DNA of 64,000 nt from a virus. This document shows positions 4,909 through 64,000 of this stretch, in pieces. The notes under the pieces were generated by a model. The model saw nothing but the letters and a program-made list of their open reading frames with translations, was not told the DNA's origin and made no database searches. The stretch is taken from positions 303,105-367,104 of IMG/VR virus record IMGVR_UViG_3300023174_002543; one strand, written 5' to 3'. The position numbers and the translations under genes are program-made. The stretch's first letter is position 1. Each line of letters starts with the position of its first letter.

Positions 4909-6825
4909 ATGCCTAGACTCTCCTTATACCGTAGTGAAAAATCAAATGATTATAGATTTTTTGACAGAACCATAGCAGAAATGCTAGATGTTGGTGCGAC
5001 TGATTTGTACATTCACAAGTACAAGGGTATCCAAGACAATGGTCCTACTGATAGCTTGAGTACTCCTAGACAAACTAGTACCGATCCAACAAAGATACAA
5101 GACTTATTATTCTTAGAGAATCGTGACCGTGTATATGACAAAGACATTTATAGATTGCGAGGGCACTATAATGTTCAAAACTTGGATTTTGATTTAAGTC
5201 AGTTTGGATTATTCCTCAATAATGATACAATTTTTATCACAGTACATTATAATAAGATGATAGAAATTGTTGGACGTAAATTAATGGTTGGTGACGTTAT
5301 TGAATTACCTCATCTAACAGATTATCATCCATTAAATGAAACAATACCCACTAGTTTACGCAGATATTATCAAATTACAGATGGTAACTTTGCCAGCGAA
5401 GGATTTAGTAATACTTGGTATGCACATTTATGGCGTATTAAATGTGAGCCATTAGTAGATACTCAGGAGTTTAGTAATATTCTTAAGCAACCAACAAGTA
5501 CAGATAATTATCTAGGTGACTGGAATAAGACAGCCACATATGTCCCGGGATATGTAGTTAGTTATGGTAATAAAAATTATATCTCCCAACAAAATGTACC
5601 AGTAGGTACACCTTGTACAAAAATAGATCCATATACAGGGACATACGTAGTTAATTCACCGTTCTGGGCACTAGATACCGCAGACAATTTAAAAGATATA
5701 TTAGGTAGATATAATCAAAACATTGAAGTAAATGACGCACTGGTCGCAGAAGCTACTAGAATTCTTCCTAGTTCAGGGTACGATAGGCGTCAATTATATC
5801 TTGTACCGACTGATCCTAGTACAAGACAGCCGCAATTACCTAAGGGTATATTAACTAGCAAGGGTGCTCCATTAACCGCAACAGTTCAAATGGTTCAAGG
5901 ATCAAGATATAGTCCTAGCCCTGGTATCATTATTGGTGCTGGTGCATTGAAAAACTTTTTAGACCAACCAATCGGCAGTAGTGATTTATTAAAAGCCTTT
6001 ATGAAGATGACATTAGAGGTTGAACAAGTTGAGCCTGATAGATTAGACACTGGTGGTGGCCAAGTGTCAGGTGATTTTGTTATTGCCGCAAGTGCAACTG
6101 CATTAATTGATAGACCATACGGCACAAGTGATAATACATATTCAGTTTCTAGTGATTATCCAAGTAGCATTGTAACCACGGTTGTTGCTCCTGCAGGTGC
6201 TACAGTTATTAATGTATTAGAATCTCCCAAAGATGCACATCCAGGTATTGATTTAACTGCAACCATTACTACATTGAATGGTCAAACCGCTGAAGTATTT
6301 GATACCGGTACAGTAATTGTAAGTAGAGATTTAGTTAATAAAACGTTTACAATAAATAAACCAACATTGTTTGCAATGCCAGTTAACACAACAATTACTA
6401 TTGCGGGTCGTAGTTTTACCGGTACAATAACAGAAGAAATGGATTATCGTGCTGACGCTGATCCAAGATTCAACTATGTTGTAAATTATACTCCAACAGG
6501 ATTTGGTTATTCTGGTGGATACATGACAGGTGACGGGACTGCACCCAATGGATTACCTTTTGAATCAGGAATAACATTTCCTAATAATCCTGCATTAGGT
6601 GATTACTTCTTAAGAACAGATTATCTTCCACAGACTATGTATCGTTATGATGGTAGTTTATGGGTACAAATAAGTAAAAATGTACGTGCTAGTGTTGGAC
6701 CAAATAGTAATCAAACACAAATGGGTTCATTTATTAATAATACTGCAACTACAACGTTGACTGATGGTACTGTAATTCCACAAAGTCAAGCACTATCATC
6801 ACTATTCAAAATAACACCAGATTAA
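4909..6825 (+). CDS. 14: Neck protein gp14-like, extended
   Basis: A 638-residue protein. The first 200 residues resemble the gp14 neck proteins of T4-like cyanophages: MPRLSLYRSEKSNDYRFFD at the start, then QDLLFLENRDR, FDLSQFGLFL and MVGDVIELPH. T4 gp14 is only 256 residues; this one carries a long C-terminal extension, including a segment near residues 555-590 with NPALGDYFLRTDYLPQ, which looks like a surface or decoration module. gp14 acts with gp13 in the neck. It is followed 8 bases later by gp15, and a late box precedes it. Confidence 0.65.
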   Translation: MPRLSLYRSEKSNDYRFFDRTIAEMLDVGATDLYIHKYKGIQDNGPTDSLSTPRQTSTDPTKIQDLLFLENRDRVYDKDIYRLRGHYNVQNLDFDLSQFGLFLNNDTIFITVHYNKMIEIVGRKLMVGDVIELPHLTDYHPLNETIPTSLRRYYQITDGNFASEGFSNTWYAHLWRIKCEPLVDTQEFSNILKQPTSTDNYLGDWNKTATYVPGYVVSYGNKNYISQQNVPVGTPCTKIDPYTGTYVVNSPFWALDTADNLKDILGRYNQNIEVNDALVAEATRILPSSGYDRRQLYLVPTDPSTRQPQLPKGILTSKGAPLTATVQMVQGSRYSPSPGIIIGAGALKNFLDQPIGSSDLLKAFMKMTLEVEQVEPDRLDTGGGQVSGDFVIAASATALIDRPYGTSDNTYSVSSDYPSSIVTTVVAPAGATVINVLESPKDAHPGIDLTATITTLNGQTAEVFDTGTVIVSRDLVNKTFTINKPTLFAMPVNTTITIAGRSFTGTITEEMDYRADADPRFNYVVNYTPTGFGYSGGYMTGDGTAPNGLPFESGITFPNNPALGDYFLRTDYLPQTMYRYDGSLWVQISKNVRASVGPNSNQTQMGSFINNTATTTLTDGTVIPQSQALSSLFKITPD

Positions 6826-52321: not shown

Positions 52322-52641
52322 GTTATTACTGCTTTCTTTTCTGCACGGTCGCTATAAATTTTTTTACCATTAACCCGAATAAAATCTACTATACCTTGAG
52401 GTGCAGTTTCAAATGCTAACTTGATTGATTCCTCAGTCAAGTCATCATCTGCATTGAATGAATAAATTTCATAACAACGCTGACTATTAGCCTTAGCCCG
52501 TAGTATCATCATTTGAATGCTAGGAGTGTCAGGTTTTTTCTTTTCGGAAAGAATACTCCACATGTATTCTTTCTCCCACTTATCCGTGTCAAACAAAAAC
52601 TCAAGACCGTACATATCCCACATTGCAAGGTATCGTTTCAT
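52318..52641 (-). CDS. Hypothetical protein, 107 residues
   Basis: Opens MKRYLAMWDMYGLEFLFD; coupled by ATGA to the halogenase gene upstream. T4-like phages have similar short proteins of unknown role. Confidence 0.55.
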   Translation of the reverse strand: MKRYLAMWDMYGLEFLFDTDKWEKEYMWSILSEKKKPDTPSIQMMILRAKANSQRCYEIYSFNADDDLTEESIKLAFETAPQGIVDFIRVNGKKIYSDRAEKKAVIT

Positions 52642-53801
52642 TTACTTTTCTCTTTTAGTTTTTCTAGTTTATCATATAAATTCAAACCAGTCAAGTTTAT
52701 TTTGTAACTTAGTGCAAGTAATACACCAAAATTTGGTTGTACTTGCATAGCCTCACCCGGATGTTCATTCTTTGACATATCATATATAAAATTAAATTTT
52801 TTATTCTTCATTAATTGCTTTGAACATTTCTCTCCACGGTCTTTTGCAAAATCCCAAAAAGGTGTGTTGAACTTAGAACCAGCATAGTAATGTAACATTA
52901 TCATACTTTCAATTTCACGTAGTATTTCTAAATAAGAAGCATTATAATCTCTGTATGAGGTCTTACCTGACCATATGTCAATAGCTCCTCGATTAATAAA
53001 ATCCATTACTACAATAGATGTTGCTTCCATTGGTTCTAGAAAAAATGACGCATTACCGTTATATATTACCCTCTTAGAAAAATTCTCTTTTCTAATATAG
53101 TTTTTGAAAGTAAATGCATTAGTAACTTCACTCGGAATTAGGTCTAACTCTGCAAATACATTTTTAACATCTTCTTTGACTTCTTCTAATGTATTGATAG
53201 TATGGTTATACATGTAACCAATCGAACATCTGTTTCTTAGAGGAATAGCAAATATCCAACCATATGGTCTGGCTATTGCAAGTGTGTTATTAAACTTTAC
53301 ATTGTCCCAATAGCATTGTGTAACGTAAACTGCATTTACTGAAATGTAGTCTGACATATAAAAGTCATCATAGTTGTCAGGTTTACCGGAACAATCCATA
53401 ATAAAATCGGCATCAATGTCACTATGTGTTACATTTTTATCAATGATTTTAATATCATCTTTCAGGGCATCTATAACATAAGTTTGAAACTTACCAGCAT
53501 TAAAATGATATCCTACATTAGGCGGGTAAAAGGGGTGAATGAAATCTTTACCGCCCCAATTACGTTTATCTATTCCATATTTTATAGTACCATCTAGTTT
53601 TTCTAAATGGTCAAATGTGAAATTTAAATTATGCCATAATGCATTAGGAAAAGTATTAGTTGATCCTTCACCTACCGGTTGTGGTTTTATGGCGGAATCA
53701 AAATATAGTTCTACCTCGCAGTCTTTCATCCATCTATTAAAATGAGAGACTGCGAGAACCCCTGCAGTACCTGCACCTATTACTGCAATCTTTTTAGCCA
53801 T
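52638..53801 (-). CDS. Flavin-dependent halogenase (tryptophan-halogenase family, VirX1-like)
   Basis: A 387-residue protein. The FAD-binding GAGTAG lies at 9-14, GEGST at 44-48, the expected catalytic lysine is Lys74 in TIKYGI, WIFAIP at 182-187 replaces the classical WxWxIP (second Trp is Phe), and FLEPMEAT matches the halogenase Glu/Ser region. The cyanophage enzyme VirX1 iodinates diverse substrates; this may be a freshwater or marine relative. Coupled by TAATG to the VWA gene. Confidence 0.8.
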   Translation of the reverse strand: MAKKIAVIGAGTAGVLAVSHFNRWMKDCEVELYFDSAIKPQPVGEGSTNTFPNALWHNLNFTFDHLEKLDGTIKYGIDKRNWGGKDFIHPFYPPNVGYHFNAGKFQTYVIDALKDDIKIIDKNVTHSDIDADFIMDCSGKPDNYDDFYMSDYISVNAVYVTQCYWDNVKFNNTLAIARPYGWIFAIPLRNRCSIGYMYNHTINTLEEVKEDVKNVFAELDLIPSEVTNAFTFKNYIRKENFSKRVIYNGNASFFLEPMEATSIVVMDFINRGAIDIWSGKTSYRDYNASYLEILREIESMIMLHYYAGSKFNTPFWDFAKDRGEKCSKQLMKNKKFNFIYDMSKNEHPGEAMQVQPNFGVLLALSYKINLTGLNLYDKLEKLKEKSK

Positions 53802-57757: not shown

Positions 57758-57765
57758 TATTTATG
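57758..57765 (-). promoter_or_regulatory. Late promoter box CATAAATA abutting a GTG start
   Basis: Six bases before GTG 57751; overlaps the end of the glycosyltransferase gene. Confidence 0.5.
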
Positions 57766-58759
57766 TCTTAGACACTAGGTTATCACGAAATATTTTCCAA
57801 GCATTTTCCCAAGACCAACGATAACTACCCTCTAACACTTTGTGTCTAGGTAAAAATAAACAATCAGTTACTGCTTGTTTTAAGTCTTCGTTCATGCACC
57901 CAGTAACACCCTCATCTATTACATCTTCTGGTCCTTGTACTGGATATGCGGCTACTGGTGTACCGCAAGCCATTGCTTCAATCATAACAATACCAAACGT
58001 TTCCCATTTGCTAGGGAATACAAATACGTCTGCGTTTGCATAATATTGCGCTAATTCTACTCCGGTCTTAAACCCAGTAAAGTGTACGTCAGGATATTGT
58101 TTTTTGTAGGTTTCTAACATTGGCCCATCACCTACCATAACTTTGAGATATTTAGGATAATCCATTTCTAAAAATGCTTCTAAATTTTTCTCTTTACTGA
58201 CCCTACTAACACATACTATATATTTGCTGGTTGTTTCTACTCTATGACTTATATTAAATATTGTTCGGTCAACACCACGTGTCCAGGGAATTATTTCGCC
58301 ATCAAATCCATGTGCTTTTAATTCTGCCACCATACTGTCCGTAGTAGTTAAAACTTTTCCACTGTGCTTGTGAAACCATCTTACTAATGGCCAAGTGATA
58401 AACTCAGGAATGCCAAATAATTTTTTTAACCCCTCAGGAAACTTAGTATGATAAGCGGTATTGTGGCGAATACTACCCAATGAAAGATATGTTCTAGCCC
58501 ACAAACCAAGAGGACCCTCTGTGGCGATATGGATATAATCCGGAGATATCTCCTCAATCTTCTTGCCCAAGTTCCTCGGATAGGCAATCTTGACTTCGTT
58601 GTAGCCAGGGCAATCAATGTAGCGGAACCACCCGGGATCCAACACCACAACGTTATAACCGTCACGAACAGCACACGCCTCAATATTTTTGTAGGTCGTA
58701 ACAACACCATTTATTTGCTCCGGTAAATTATCTGTTATAATTAAGATTGTTTTTGACAT
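57761..58759 (-). CDS. GT4-family glycosyltransferase (Agt-like glycolipid synthase candidate)
   Basis: A 332-residue GT-B enzyme. The N-terminus ITDNLPEQINGVVTTYKN is typical of GT4 lipid glycosyltransferases, and the donor-site EAMACGTPVAAYP with a preceding FVFPSKWETFG follows. It is directly downstream of a PlcP-like phosphoesterase. In phosphate-starved bacteria the plcP-agt pair converts phospholipids to glycolipids (diacylglycerol is the acceptor). That function is inferred from the pairing. Confidence 0.75.
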   Translation of the reverse strand: MSKTILIITDNLPEQINGVVTTYKNIEACAVRDGYNVVVLDPGWFRYIDCPGYNEVKIAYPRNLGKKIEEISPDYIHIATEGPLGLWARTYLSLGSIRHNTAYHTKFPEGLKKLFGIPEFITWPLVRWFHKHSGKVLTTTDSMVAELKAHGFDGEIIPWTRGVDRTIFNISHRVETTSKYIVCVSRVSKEKNLEAFLEMDYPKYLKVMVGDGPMLETYKKQYPDVHFTGFKTGVELAQYYANADVFVFPSKWETFGIVMIEAMACGTPVAAYPVQGPEDVIDEGVTGCMNEDLKQAVTDCLFLPRHKVLEGSYRWSWENAWKIFRDNLVSKT

Positions 58760-58792
58760 GAACCCTCTACTTTAAAACTTTTAAATTTTAAT

Positions 58793-59668
58793 TCATATTT
58801 CATTGTTGACAATGTTTGTTCGCAACTCTTTTGGTCGTTGAACAATAGTTCTATTCTTCCTGGTCGATCTTGCGGGTTGTTCATGTGTACTGCTATCAAT
58901 ATCATTAACCACATTATCACGCTCCTTAGTCCAAGTTACTATTTCCCAACGACCATCATGGTGTTCTACTAGTGCTGTGCAACTTTCTACCCAGTCACCA
59001 TCATTCATATATGTAATACCATCTATATCTTTTATCTCAGCATGATGAATGTGTCCACAGATAACCCCATCAAAGCCTCTCTTGCGACAATAGCCAGCAA
59101 GATTATGCTCAAACTGAAACATAAAATCCACGGCTTTTTTAACACGATGCTTAAGATACTTAGACAAACTCCAGTAACCAAAACCCATGCGATGACGAAT
59201 CCAATTAAACTTACTATTAAGAGTGAGTATAAAATCATACAACCTATCTCCCAAGAATCCTAACCAAGGAGCTAGGCGTGTTATACCATCAAACAAATCC
59301 CCATGTACAACTAGATAGTGTTTACCATCTGCTCCTATGTGTTCTATTTGATTGTGTATTTCTATTAAGCCAAAACTAAAACCATATGGTATCATTGGTC
59401 TTAAGAATTCATCGTGATTGCCTGCAATGAATATTACTTTTGTACCACGCTTGGCATGACCTAATACTCTGCGTACTACGTTGGTGTGACTTTGTTTCCA
59501 ACGCCATTTGTTTTGTTGAATCTTCCATGCATCAATTATATCTCCTACAAGATATAATGTTTCGCAAGTATTATGTTTAAGAAAGTTGTTAAGGGATTCG
59601 GCTTTACAATCTTTTGTGCCAAGATGTACATCACTAATAAAAATAGCACGATATGTTCTCTGTGTCAT
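58793..59668 (-). CDS. PlcP-like metallophosphoesterase (phospholipid phospholipase C type)
   Basis: A 291-residue calcineurin-fold enzyme. Metal-binding motifs: SDVHLGT (Asp13, His15), VGDIIDAW, GNHDE, VHGD and CGHIHH. The segments YDFILTLNSKFNWIRH and DGDWVESCTALVEH match the PlcP group, which releases diacylglycerol from phospholipids under phosphate limitation; LpxH is the other possibility. ATG 59668 lies five bases after GATAAATA; an ATG at 59674 overlaps the box. Confidence 0.75.
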   Translation of the reverse strand: MTQRTYRAIFISDVHLGTKDCKAESLNNFLKHNTCETLYLVGDIIDAWKIQQNKWRWKQSHTNVVRRVLGHAKRGTKVIFIAGNHDEFLRPMIPYGFSFGLIEIHNQIEHIGADGKHYLVVHGDLFDGITRLAPWLGFLGDRLYDFILTLNSKFNWIRHRMGFGYWSLSKYLKHRVKKAVDFMFQFEHNLAGYCRKRGFDGVICGHIHHAEIKDIDGITYMNDGDWVESCTALVEHHDGRWEIVTWTKERDNVVNDIDSSTHEQPARSTRKNRTIVQRPKELRTNIVNNEI

Positions 59669-59706
59669 GTACATATTTATCGGAAAAATCCGTTATAATG
59701 TATGAC
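59664..59706 (-). promoter_or_regulatory. Late promoter in an imperfect inverted repeat before the PlcP-like gene
   Basis: GTCAT-ACAT (59706 to 59698) pairs imperfectly with ATGTACATGAC (59674 to 59664), which includes the start codon. A CGGA/TCCG stem and GATAAATA (59681 to 59674) lie between. Confidence 0.45.
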
Positions 59707-59727
59707 AATTCTGTGACACACGTAGGT

Positions 59728-59747
59728 AGTCCCGGCTAGCCGGGACT
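59728..59747. repeat. Perfect 20-bp palindrome
   Basis: AGTCCCGGCTAGCCGGGACT, GC-rich in an AT-rich genome, just after the small membrane gene. It could be a terminator without a long T tract, or a protein-binding site. Confidence 0.7.
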
Positions 59748-59756
59748 TGGTTAAAA

Positions 59757-59981
59757 TTACTTTCTAGTTCTAGTATTATCTATACTTGGTTCAATCTTGG
59801 GTTCATCTATGGTGTGTACAGGAGGGTTAACATGCCAGCTGTCTAAAGTAAATATACGTATTGGTTTCCAATATTTACTTAGTAAATTATTAATTACAAC
59901 CGCCGCCCCAATTACTACAATAAAACCTAGTGCAGTTAAAATACTACCTGCCAAAAATACTGCTGATTGATCCATGTTCAT
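59757..59981 (-). CDS. Small membrane protein, 74 residues
   Basis: One hydrophobic span (about residues 8-33, FLAGSILTALGFIVVIGAAV), then a polar tail. AAGGAA precedes ATG 59981. It follows the rubredoxin gene by 11 bases in the same operon. Function unknown. Confidence 0.6.
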   Translation of the reverse strand: MNMDQSAVFLAGSILTALGFIVVIGAAVVINNLLSKYWKPIRIFTLDSWHVNPPVHTIDEPKIEPSIDNTRTRK

Positions 59982-59992
59982 GATAATGTTCC

Positions 59993-60121
59993 TTAAATAG
60001 TTTCGTAATCTTCTTTACCTACACCGCATTCCGGGCATAGAAAATCTGCAGGCAAATCTTCCCATTTACCTTCTATTTCTTCATCGTGGATATGTCCACA
60101 TACTACGCATACGTGTTCCAT
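59993..60121 (-). CDS. Rubredoxin, 42 residues
   Basis: A minimal rubredoxin: CVVCGHIHD near the N-terminus and CPECGVGKEDY near the C-terminus give the four iron-binding cysteines. Spacing matches the rubredoxin domain usually fused to rubrerythrin. The ATG overlaps the rubrerythrin stop as TAATG, so both are made together. It would pass electrons to the diiron site. Confidence 0.88.
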   Translation of the reverse strand: MEHVCVVCGHIHDEEIEGKWEDLPADFLCPECGVGKEDYETI

Positions 60122-60585
60122 TATTGAACCTCCTGTAACATTTTTTGATAAGCAGTAGCATGACGTTCTTCAACTCGTTTTAGTGCAGAGAAACGTTTTT
60201 GTGCTTTGTCTAATACTGCCTTAAATTGTTCAGCGTGTTCTTTGCTTTCTGCAATTTGACCACGCATTTCTTGTGCTACTTCATTAGCACCTTCCATCAT
60301 AGCATCTGCTTCCATGTTAGGATACATAACAGTGAATTCTTGTGTTTCACCTTCAATAGCCTTTTCTAAACATTGCACTGTTGTTGGTTTGCCGATTAGT
60401 AATTCTAAATGCCCCCATGCATGTAGGATTTCTTGGTCTGCGGTATGTTCAAAGTGTTTTGCAACATCCTCGAACCCCTCTTCCCTTGCTATTTTTGCAA
60501 AATAACGATACTTGATATGAGCCATACTCTCACCTGCAAGTGCGTATTCTAAGTTTTTTAGTGTCGCTGATTGATTTTGTGACAT
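60121..60585 (-). CDS. Rubrerythrin (diiron peroxidase) lacking its rubredoxin domain
   Basis: A 154-residue four-helix diiron protein: Glu19 in AGES, EILH at 52-55, Glu80 in EGET and further carboxylates follow the rubrerythrin pattern. It reduces hydrogen peroxide. The C-terminal rubredoxin domain is absent but encoded separately just downstream. A sigma-70 promoter (TTGACT-17-TAGAAT) makes it early. Confidence 0.88.
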   Translation of the reverse strand: MSQNQSATLKNLEYALAGESMAHIKYRYFAKIAREEGFEDVAKHFEHTADQEILHAWGHLELLIGKPTTVQCLEKAIEGETQEFTVMYPNMEADAMMEGANEVAQEMRGQIAESKEHAEQFKAVLDKAQKRFSALKRVEERHATAYQKMLQEVQ

Positions 60586-60607
60586 AGTTTTCCTTTATTC
60601 GAACTGA

Positions 60608-60636
60608 ATTCTACTTTATATTGATAGATAAGTCAA
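60608..60636 (-). promoter_or_regulatory. Sigma-70 (early) promoter for rubrerythrin
   Basis: TTGACT, 17 bases, TAGAAT. Confidence 0.65.
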
Positions 60637-60685
60637 CAAGTTTTGGATATATTCCCATTTGTATTAATTGTGTCATATTATACGT

Positions 60686-60693
60686 CATAAATA
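60686..60693 (+). promoter_or_regulatory. Late promoter box CATAAATA abutting a start codon
   Basis: Five bases before ATG 60699 on the plus strand. Confidence 0.55.
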
Positions 60694-60698
60694 TCATA

Positions 60699-61358
60699 AT
60701 GAGACCCACAATAGCCCTATTCATTGCTGATCCAAAATGCTCAGTTCAGAGCGGAAATGGTATTATAAAAGCATTGGGAGAACACTATAACTTCAAATTA
60801 TTCTCAAAAAATGCATTAGAAGATAATTTCTTCGAGGGAGTAGATATAGTAGCAGTTCCCGGAGGACTCGGAGATAGTGACAGCTACAATACTCTATTGA
60901 AACATAGTGCAAATCGTATCCGTAAATTTGTTAGTAACGGTGGACGATATCTTGGGATATGTATGGGGGCATATTGGGCTGATAGTCACTACTTCAATAT
61001 ACTAGATGATGTTAGGGTAGTTCAATATATCAAACAACCAAATACTTGTACTAGACGACCACATGCTAAAAACATGCCTGTCATGTGGAAGGATCGATAT
61101 GGTATGGTAGAACCATACAAGATGTTTTTTTATGATGGATGTGCATTAGTAGGTGATAATACTAAATTTGAAACCGTTGCGACTTATAGTAACGGTGATG
61201 CGATGGCTATTATACAAAATCGTATAGGATTAATAGGGTGTCATCCAGAAAGTGAACAGTTTTGGTATGATAGTTACAGTTGGATGCGAGGTTACTATCA
61301 CCGCGGCCAACATCATACACTATTATTAGATTTTGTTAATTCTTTGATGAAGAGGTAA
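60699..61358 (+). CDS. Class I amidotransferase-like (BPL_N-type) protein
   Basis: A 219-residue protein. VAVPGGLGDSDSYN and the nucleophile elbow GICMGAYWAD (Cys88) followed by GCHPESEQ give the class I glutamine-amidotransferase-like fold, closest in pattern to the BPL_N group. No synthetase partner is visible. An in-frame upstream ATG (60621) is rejected because ATG 60699 fits the five-base late-box spacing. Confidence 0.7.
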   Translation: MRPTIALFIADPKCSVQSGNGIIKALGEHYNFKLFSKNALEDNFFEGVDIVAVPGGLGDSDSYNTLLKHSANRIRKFVSNGGRYLGICMGAYWADSHYFNILDDVRVVQYIKQPNTCTRRPHAKNMPVMWKDRYGMVEPYKMFFYDGCALVGDNTKFETVATYSNGDAMAIIQNRIGLIGCHPESEQFWYDSYSWMRGYYHRGQHHTLLLDFVNSLMKR

Positions 61359-61479
61359 CTTCCTCTTTCTTCTTTTCCTTGACTACTGGTTCAGGTAAGT
61401 GAGGAGCAATTACATAATAGTTGGCGCCCCACCAACCTAATGCTGACAAAAATCCTATCACAATATATTCTGCTATCAT
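61336..61479 (-). CDS. Small membrane protein, 47 residues
   Basis: Opens MIAEYIVIGFLSALGWWGAN, one hydrophobic span, then a Pro- and Lys/Glu-rich tail. AAAGGA precedes ATG 61479. The 3' end overlaps the convergent plus-strand gene by 23 bases. Function unknown. Confidence 0.6.
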   Translation of the reverse strand: MIAEYIVIGFLSALGWWGANYYVIAPHLPEPVVKEKKKEEVTSSSKN

Positions 61480-62470: not shown

Positions 62471-62499
62471 ATGATATACTAAACTATGTGATTTGTCTA
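62471..62499 (-). promoter_or_regulatory. Sigma-70-like promoter near the start codon
   Basis: TAGACA, 17 bases, TATCAT. Confidence 0.5.
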
Positions 62500-63194
62500 G
62501 CATTAGCTAACCCAAACAACGTGAATATGGTCAACCACATATAACCCACATCAAATTCATACCACTTCTTGCTTAGGCGAGGACTTGCTGGGTTTAAGTG
62601 GTGATTGTTGTGTAATTCTTCACCGCCAATAATAATACCCCAAGGACTAATGTTTCTGCTATCATCTTTAGTTTCACCATTACGATATCCAATCCAATGT
62701 CCAATGCCGTTAATGACGCCAGCTGCCCAGAATGGTATCCATATCATTTGTATGCCCCATATTAATATTCCCCAATATCCAAAGACTACCGTGTTGAACA
62801 AAAAGAGAATGCTAATGCCAGATCTGGAGTAAGGAGTGTATATGTTGTGCTCCATCCAATCAGAAGGAGTACCAACACCATATGTATCAACCATATCTTT
62901 ATCTTTTGATGCTTCATGGTATAATAATGCTCCTTTAAAAAATACTTGTTTAATTCCGTACACATGCGGGCTGTGTGGATCACCCTCTGTATCACTATAT
63001 CTATGATGCTTACGATGTATTGCTACCCATTGCTTGGTGACCATACCTGTGGTTAACCATAACCAAAAGCGCATGAAGTGACTTAGTATAGGGTGAAAGA
63101 TTATTCCTTTGTGTGCCTGACCTCTATGTAAGAATAGGGTGACACAAATGATAGTAATATGTGTTACTATCAATGTATAGATTATATATGTCAT
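62484..63194 (-). CDS. Acyl-lipid/acyl-CoA desaturase (delta-9 type)
   Basis: A 236-residue membrane desaturase. The three His boxes are HRGQAH (23-28), HRKHH (60-64) and HNNHH (195-199), with His166 between; at least four hydrophobic spans are visible. It introduces a double bond in fatty acyl chains. Cyanophage lipid desaturases are known. ATG lies four bases after ACTAAATA in an inverted repeat. Confidence 0.88.
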   Translation of the reverse strand: MTYIIYTLIVTHITIICVTLFLHRGQAHKGIIFHPILSHFMRFWLWLTTGMVTKQWVAIHRKHHRYSDTEGDPHSPHVYGIKQVFFKGALLYHEASKDKDMVDTYGVGTPSDWMEHNIYTPYSRSGISILFLFNTVVFGYWGILIWGIQMIWIPFWAAGVINGIGHWIGYRNGETKDDSRNISPWGIIIGGEELHNNHHLNPASPRLSKKWYEFDVGYMWLTIFTLFGLANARQIT

Positions 63195-63435: not shown

Positions 63436-63462
63436 CAAAATAAAAGGGCAACTAGTGCCCTT
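63436..63462 (-). terminator. Terminator after pqqA
   Basis: AAGGGCA/TGCCCTT stem followed by TTTTATTTT on the minus strand, 8 bases after the pqqA stop. Confidence 0.75.
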
Positions 63463-63469
63463 CCCCATG

Positions 63470-63541
63470 TTATCGGTTAGCGATATACATAGTGATTTCG
63501 AAACCGAAGCGCATATCGCTTGCTGTAGGTTTTGTCCACAT
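63470..63541 (-). CDS. pqqA: PQQ precursor peptide PqqA
   Basis: A 23-residue peptide that opens MWTKPTASDMRFG and ends MYIANR. It has the hallmark Glu15 and Tyr19 (E-x3-Y) from which PqqE/D make pyrroloquinoline quinone, the Trp-x-Lys-Pro start, and the terminal Arg typical of PqqA. A strong AAAAGGAG lies upstream. No pqqB-E genes are in the window, so the host would supply the enzymes. The unit has its own promoter, leader hairpin and terminator. Confidence 0.88.
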   Translation of the reverse strand: MWTKPTASDMRFGFEITMYIANR

Positions 63542-63560
63542 AATTTTCTCCTTTTAAGTT

Positions 63561-63576
63561 ATGCACCGTAGTGCAT
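63561..63576 (-). promoter_or_regulatory. Leader hairpin of pqqA mRNA
   Basis: ATGCAC/GTGCAT stem with a four-base loop, at the predicted 5' end just upstream of the binding site; likely stabilises the mRNA. Confidence 0.5.
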
Positions 63577-63580
63577 GACT

Positions 63581-63589
63581 AGTATAACA
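63581..63589 (-). promoter_or_regulatory. Extended -10 promoter element for pqqA
   Basis: TGTTATACT on the minus strand (TGn plus TATACT). The -35 region is poor and is overlapped by direct repeats, suggesting activator or repressor control. Confidence 0.5.
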
Positions 63590-63604
63590 GATAACTAAAA
63601 TATT

Positions 63605-63650
63605 GATATAGAGAAAATCATTAATCTGATATAGAGAAAATCATTAATCT
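63605..63650. repeat. Perfect tandem repeat, 2 x 23 bp, upstream of pqqA
   Basis: GATATAGAGAAAATCATTAA plus TCT occurs twice back to back (63605-63627, 63628-63650). It lies just upstream of the pqqA -10, between pqqA and the tmRNA terminator. Confidence 0.8.
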
Positions 63651-63671
63651 ATGTTAGTGTTTACACTTAGA

Positions 63672-63697
63672 GAAAAAGGCTCCTAAGAGCCTTTTCT
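63672..63697 (-). terminator. Rho-independent terminator of the tmRNA
   Basis: AAGGCTC/GAGCCTT stem with a T tract after the tag reading frame; core identical to 61490-61523. Confidence 0.85.
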
Positions 63698-64000
63698 GAT
63701 TTTCTGTTACGAGGTATGTCTTACCCTAGGATGCTTTTATCAAGCAGCCAATGCGAACTGTGAGTCGTTTGCGTTTACTTTTTTCGCTTCTTCGGCCGGG
63801 CCTAACGTCTTTCTATGCTATGAGCATAGCGACTATTACTTTTCCCCCAACCCTACGGTTTTCACATTACCGTGCTGTCCACTCTGTTACTACTTGCCCT
63901 GTCGAAACTATGCAGGCCCATCATAAACATACTGTTTGGACTTTTATTATGAGCATTGTTATCTCATTCACCAGTAGACATTATGTTTATGGTGGACCTG
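63673..64000 (-). ncRNA. ssrA: Circularly permuted two-piece tmRNA (right end cut by window)
   Basis: The tag frame at 63772-63740 encodes ANDSQFALAA then TGA. The coding piece starts at 63919 with GGGCCTG, then TTCGACAGGGC, the usual tmRNA 5' pattern. The acceptor piece (CAGGTCC, A, CCA) lies upstream in the transcript at 64000-63990. The seven acceptor pairs fit with a G3-U70 wobble and discriminator A, as alanyl-tRNA synthetase needs. The 70-base spacer extends the stem (TAAACATA/TATGTTTA). The T arm lies beyond the window. A terminator follows the tag, so no standard 3' part is encoded after it. Confidence 0.88.

Follow-up and report, generated by a model that had tools for sequence, protein, structure and literature searches.

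We find that a viral genome fragment carries a stand-alone copy of pqqA, the gene for the peptide precursor of PQQ, and that this copy lies downstream of a sequence element that phage and host pqqA genes have in common. The fragment (the window, 64,000 nucleotides in length) makes up the last 64 kb of a viral record of 367,104 bases. On the strength of sequence comparisons that identify the gene, set it apart from the rest of the pathway, reveal purifying selection on it and place it behind a host-type operator, we think it likely that the window's pqqA is a working copy, in a phage, of the host PQQ precursor gene, in other words a substrate-supply auxiliary gene under host pqqA control.

The predicted peptide matches both the PF08042 PqqA profile (E 3e-10, 40.2 bits, against a cut-off of 21.1) and TIGR02107 (E 2e-10, 40.4 bits, cut-off 20), contains Glu15 and Tyr19, the two residues that become PQQ, and is identical in the viral loci L010 and L011. 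The gene (Table 1) is the single pqqA in the entire record. In profile searches of the window's record, ten other viral records and six public phage genomes, the PqqB and PqqC models gave zero matches and the PqqE model gave nothing over its cut-off; the same search returned clear PqqB and PqqC matches from a Limnohabitans control genome. PQQ-repeat dehydrogenases were not found in 24 pqqA phage records, that of the window included.

Table 1 Features at and around pqqA in the window
Feature	Position	Strand	Evidence
Conserved 102-aa phage gene, function unassigned; next syntenic gene after pqqA in L010, L011 and L025	62155..62463	-	60-68% identity
Intrinsic terminator hairpin	63442..63464	-	Hairpin
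pqqA, 23-residue PQQ precursor peptide MWTKPTASDMRFGFEITMYIANR, ATG to TAA	63470..63541	-	PF08042 and TIGR02107 matches
Shine-Dalgarno region AAAAGGAGA	63547..63555	-	Sequence
5' leader stem-loop, six-pair core stem plus outer pairs	63556..63578	-	-10.5 kcal/mol, z -3.7
Extended -10 TGTTATACT	63581..63589	-	Sequence; -10-like block at about the same spacing in aligned phage upstreams
23-bp repeat, proximal copy, putative pqqA operator (motif core 63607-63625)	63605..63627	-	Motif score 20.0
23-bp repeat, distal copy, putative pqqA operator (motif core 63630-63648)	63628..63650	-	Motif score 20.0; perfect repeat
Permuted (two-piece) betaproteobacterial-type tmRNA, tag ANDSQFALAA, encoded CCA, cut by record end	63671..64000	-	RF01850, RF04321

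The gene has expression signals of its own. The sequence AAAGGAG lies 7–8 nt 5' of the ATG, and an AGGAG-like site is near-universal among viral pqqA loci. The leader hairpin has the core ATGCAC-TACG-GTGCAT, and a stem-loop opens the leaders of many phage pqqA genes (mean z of -1.3 vs -0.2 in control stretches). No -35 hexamer could be recognised at the window's pqqA promoter. The proximal repeat copy ends 20 nt before the -10 hexamer TATACT, which places the centre of its motif near -43. The window holds no further copy of the tandem 23-bp repeats when up to three mismatches are allowed, and none is expected in shuffled sequence. The preliminary description of this DNA had listed a 23-residue PqqA with Glu15 and Tyr19, standing apart from the other pqq genes and equipped with a ribosome-binding site, a leader hairpin, an extended -10 element, perfect 23-bp repeats and a terminator. 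All of these are present in the window's sequence, the peptide scoring over both curated cut-offs and the absence of PqqB and PqqC matches, and of PqqE matches over the cut-off, extending to the whole record. Its proposal that pqqA forms an independent, regulated unit likewise gains support, with the refinement that the regulation is more specific than had been proposed, the repeats being a host-type pqqA operator. That description had noted neither the sharing of this element with host pqqA genes nor the tmRNA just upstream.

Each 23-bp repeat holds a copy of a 19-bp element that is common to viral pqqA upstream regions. Expectation-maximisation (EM) motif discovery in 59 non-redundant viral upstreams returned one 19-bp motif, [AT]TTAATGATTWTCNNTAKG, with a log-likelihood of 370 as against about 65 in base-shuffled sets. 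The motif scores at least 12 in 52 of these 59 upstreams (it is missing from four and weak in three more) and in 0.6% of random viral stretches, a figure in which the pqqA sites themselves are counted. Raising the threshold to 17 left 46 on-target loci and not one hit outside pqqA upstreams across 854 kb of viral loci, and both copies of the core AATGATTTTCNNTA that the 367-kb record contains lie at pqqA. Alignment of 50 phage upstreams on the motif shows random flanks and a -10-like hexamer at a fixed distance, the motif centre falling about 43 bp before the inferred transcription start; a site near -43 would suit an activator that contacts polymerase at promoters whose -35 is poor. The phage motif is a dyad, TAATGA-N3-TCNNTA, and the window's copies fit a TNATGA-N3-TCATNA-type dyad pattern, with a degenerate right half-site (TCTCTA). 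Across phage upstreams, offsets of -23 and +23 from the motif outscore most other offsets, and a second copy 23 bp away is thus a wider trend among phages, perfected in the window.

The same element is found at host pqqA genes. Of 40 betaproteobacterial pqqA upstreams, 32 score at least 12 with the phage-trained motif, for which hosts were outside the training set, vs 0.7% of random host stretches. The betaproteobacterial form is a 7-3-7 palindrome, CTCATGA-AAA-TCATGAG or CTAATGA-AAA-TCATTAG, and the Methylophaga form is CTCAGGA-AAA-TCCTGAG; the phage dyads are weaker than these host palindromes. The exact palindrome TCATGAWWWTCATGA has 12 sites in seven of nine whole host genomes, and the reversed control pattern has none in the nine. 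Since ten of the 12 sites lie 90–150 nt upstream of pqqA, the element is all but reserved for pqqA in hosts and phages alike. The two host palindrome sites away from pqqA are one upstream of a glycine-zipper surface-antigen-like gene (L203, G018:C14:24704) and one in Thauera about 1.1 kb from the gene of the candidate response regulator described below (L199, G030:C12:56600). Sequence comparison thus reveals an operator common to phage and host pqqA. We found no description of the palindrome in the literature searched, the coverage of which leaves out most subscription journals.

The shared palindrome points to the regulator of host pqqA copies, a regulator for which the literature searched gave no description. 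Near pqqA in two host lineages are genes for a sensor kinase (HisKA_3) and a NarL/GacA-like response regulator (Response_reg plus GerE), and the sensor kinase of one lineage also has a sub-threshold LapD_MoxY_N match. The two-component genes are divergent from pqqA in seven Comamonadaceae loci and directly upstream of it in at least ten Methylophaga-type loci; in Methylophilaceae, the nearest homologues of the regulator, 51–60% identical, are located away from pqqA. Gene adjacency in two lineages makes this MoxY/NarL-type two-component system a candidate for the pqqA regulator. A phage-encoded copy of the regulator was looked for in nine phage records and set aside, none being present. In Acinetobacter, an amsR response-regulator mutant is stated to have pqqA mRNA lowered 31.8-fold with pqqBCDE unchanged (PMC10112286), and pqqA can therefore be controlled separately by a system of this kind.

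Stand-alone pqqA is widespread among viruses. A scan of viral contigs gave at least 600 stretches that matched the pattern [ED]MRFGFE, and 598 of the matches listed encode PqqA relatives, so that at least 598 viral stretches do so. None of 80 viral loci inspected has pqqB, C, D or E in its flanks, as against 26 of 80 bacterial pqqA loci. The gene also went without a pqqA annotation in the public genomes of six phages, namely the five OM43 isolates Melnitz, Venkman, MEP301, MEP402 and P19250A and the spring virus ctXG6705; we saw it in four Melnitz strains and in MEP401/402. At these sites the public annotation gives either nothing or an overlapping hypothetical ORF, and the papers on Melnitz and on an OM43 phage do not mention pqqA. 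A contig labelled 'Acinetobacter phage MD-2021a' (CAKLQF020000010.1, L008) was set aside as a viral case; a full pqqBCDE set lies behind its pqqA, and the contig is therefore probably bacterial. Large tRNA arrays, of about 20 or more genes each within a few kb, lie near phage pqqA in L014 and L015.

The pattern of substitution shows that viral pqqA is under purifying selection. Among 1043 pairs of viral pqqA genes, pS is 0.54 and pN 0.08; L012 and L013 differ by five synonymous changes with no amino-acid change, and L013 and L015 by ten synonymous and no non-synonymous changes. The 45 distinct viral peptides do not vary at residues W2, P5, M10, R11, F12, G13, F14, E15, T17, Y19 and N22, the conservation of residues 10–15 being partly imposed because the search pattern was [ED]MRFGFE, and that of T17, Y19, N22, W2 and P5 being free of it. 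Glu15 and Tyr19, on whose conservation in homologous phage loci the preliminary description had made its reading depend in part, are therefore retained in 45 of 45 distinct peptides, Glu15 inside the search pattern and Tyr19 outside it.

The window also encodes a terminase large subunit, a DnaB-like helicase, a single-strand binding protein and a T4-like tail sheath stabiliser, and we therefore assign it to a large tailed phage. Upstream of pqqA is a tmRNA that matches RF04321 over the gathering score and RF01850 (E 8e-16) below it, the latter because the molecule is truncated; some 20 bp separate its end, where a terminator-like hairpin lies at 63674-63695, from the pqqA operator, and a same-strand tmRNA likewise precedes pqqA in L010–L013, L016 and L055. 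L011 is syntenic with the window over about 10 kb. This synteny sets the ends of the record close together, yet joining them yielded no tmRNA with ARAGORN, and some sequence must therefore be missing there. The end of the window found no counterpart among phages by megablast. Between genes that are syntenic with L011, the window has a metabolic-type gene block absent from that relative (57761-61479 and 62484-63194), with a glycosyltransferase, a calcineurin-like phosphoesterase, rubredoxin-like and rubrerythrin ORFs, a BPL_N/GATase-like protein and a fatty acid desaturase. Elsewhere in the window are a freshwater-2 RNA (RF02980; 9687-9763, minus strand; 53.8 bits, over the gathering score), a cis-regulatory candidate in a phage genome, and a tryptophan-halogenase-like protein (PF04820, E 3e-33; 52638-53801, minus strand).

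A betaproteobacterial host is likely for this phage, because the PqqA core, DMRFGFEITMYIANR, is of the Comamonadaceae/Thauera type rather than the Methylophilaceae type: it matches Comamonadaceae/Rhodocyclales PqqA at 91% over residues 2–23, vs 74% for Methylophilaceae PqqA. The tmRNA is likewise of betaproteobacterial type. The suggestion that the host might be a methylotroph finds no support in this comparison. Among sampled Comamonadaceae-family genomes, 20 of 101 have pqqA.

Taken together, these observations suggest how the gene might work. After injection, the host protein that controls pqqA, probably the response regulator (NarL family) of a MoxY-type system, would bind the tandem operator and, acting as an activator rather than a repressor, recruit RNA polymerase to an otherwise weak phage pqqA promoter. 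The short, hairpin-protected mRNA would be translated into PqqA, in which host PqqE/PqqD would cross-link Glu15 to Tyr19; host PqqF/G, B and C would then complete PQQ, one precursor being used for each cofactor. In this way PQQ-dependent dehydrogenases could stay charged as host gene expression falls, and the levels of PQQ or the yield of phage may rise. The pqqA phages are largely unrelated to one another in their other genes, and on balance we favour the broader view that many unrelated phages of PQQ-making bacteria have a lone pqqA which, behind its host-type operator, belongs to the host pqqA regulon, such that a host two-component system would set the amount of viral PQQ precursor.

The Fur consensus is GATAATGATAATCATTATC, which the AATGAT core resembles, many loci matching it at 12–15 of 19 positions, above shuffles; a Fur box was accordingly our first idea for the repeats, replaced after de novo motif finding and the discovery of the host palindromes, and the restriction of the motif to pqqA led us to drop the idea of a phage-wide promoter element. 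That the element is one of these rather than the host pqqA operator is unlikely: the host version is a 7-3-7 dyad, CTCATGA-N3-TCATGAG or CTCAGGA-N3-TCCTGAG, whose spacing differs from that of the Fur consensus, and it is practically absent upstream of non-pqqA genes in phages and nearly so in hosts. Alternatively, the phage could use its operator copies, or the peptide, as a decoy that sequesters the host regulator or PqqD/PqqE and so lowers host PQQ synthesis. Two perfect tandem operators in the window, the few regulator sites in each host genome and the high copy number to which a phage genome replicates would all suit such titration. A DNA decoy, however, would work without any gene, and loss of the reactive residues would be expected of an inhibitor peptide, whereas Glu15, Tyr19 and the whole core are under strong purifying selection and nearly all loci keep a ribosome site; we consider this reading quite improbable.

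The product might instead be the precursor of a different modified peptide, matured by a phage radical-SAM enzyme, and a radical-SAM/SPASM-like ORF (L009 3816-5246) does lie near the start of the record, no more than several kb from pqqA if the ends adjoin. This ORF is not among the L010 or L011 genes that match the record start, most of the pqqA phages tested have no PqqE-like match, and it is host PqqA, not some other precursor family, that the peptide matches, all of which makes this alternative very doubtful; the search for a phage-encoded PqqE or radical-SAM maturase turned up weak matches only and both were dropped as candidates. Next to the radical-SAM/SPASM-like protein, L009 has a second fatty acid desaturase (5243-6103, minus strand), amid glycine-rich repeat-like ORFs. 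Finally, a gene this tiny, with many scattered host copies available for capture, could be an unused relic or neutral passenger of host origin, but the pS and pN values given above, and the retention of the operator while its flanks randomise in phages with largely unrelated other genes, leave this scarcely credible.

PqqA is consumed one per PQQ, and some bacteria have amplified its gene alone. In our sample pqqA is present in 60 of 60 Methylophilaceae genomes, with 2–12 copies in 58 of them; 3–12 copies beside a single pqqBCDE have been published for this family (PMC4109929), and by analogy this amplification is a cellular counterpart of phage pqqA carriage. Work on P. putida and Methylobacterium, as cited in PMC10112286, is said there to show little effect of pqqA level on PQQ, and in some hosts precursor may therefore not limit PQQ; published views differ on whether PQQ is limited by pqqA dosage. 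PQQ powers the oxidation of methanol, alcohol and sugar in abundant aquatic bacteria, and a 23-codon gene is easily overlooked in annotation, as in the six public phage genomes. If our reading is right, viruses top up a consumable cofactor precursor in an amount set by a host sensor, an unusual mode of auxiliary-gene regulation, and the dyad would give this pqqA regulator its first described operator. Cultured phage–host pairs exist, so that both the precursor-supply and the regulator claims are directly testable.

Phage PqqA as such has been reported already; the breadth of its distribution and the shared operator appear to be new. We found no report of stand-alone pqqA across many phages or in OM43 isolates, in a search that left most subscription journals outside. 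The Lake Baikal virus VP_266 is likewise a viral contig with PqqA, read as boosting methanol oxidation by a methylotroph host, and it is reported with methanol dehydrogenase, whereas the window's pqqA stands alone; the accessible portion of that paper (PMC7678222) makes no mention of a shared operator, a broad distribution or OM43 isolates. In a reservoir study, pqqA, pqqD and pqqE appear among viral genes (PMC13188868). The AmsSR system of Acinetobacter baumannii, whose response regulator is needed strongly by pqqA and not by pqqBCDE, resembles the system proposed here in role, the accessible part of the report describing no operator (PMC10112286). The orphan pqqA genes of Methylophilaceae and Methylophaga, like the phage gene, lie apart from a single pqqBCDE set, most with a palindrome of their own; unlike the phage gene, they are cellular, with near-perfect palindromes, an operator more distant from the ATG (about -105 to -145) and a longer leader. 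The pqqABCDE operons of Limnohabitans, Rhodoferax, Polaromonas and Thauera have pqqBCDE behind pqqA, unlike the window, and divergent MoxY/NarL-type two-component genes lie near the Comamonadaceae loci, but the first gene of these operons encodes the same PqqA core, DMRFGFEITMYIANR, and most have the same operator half-sites as the phage.
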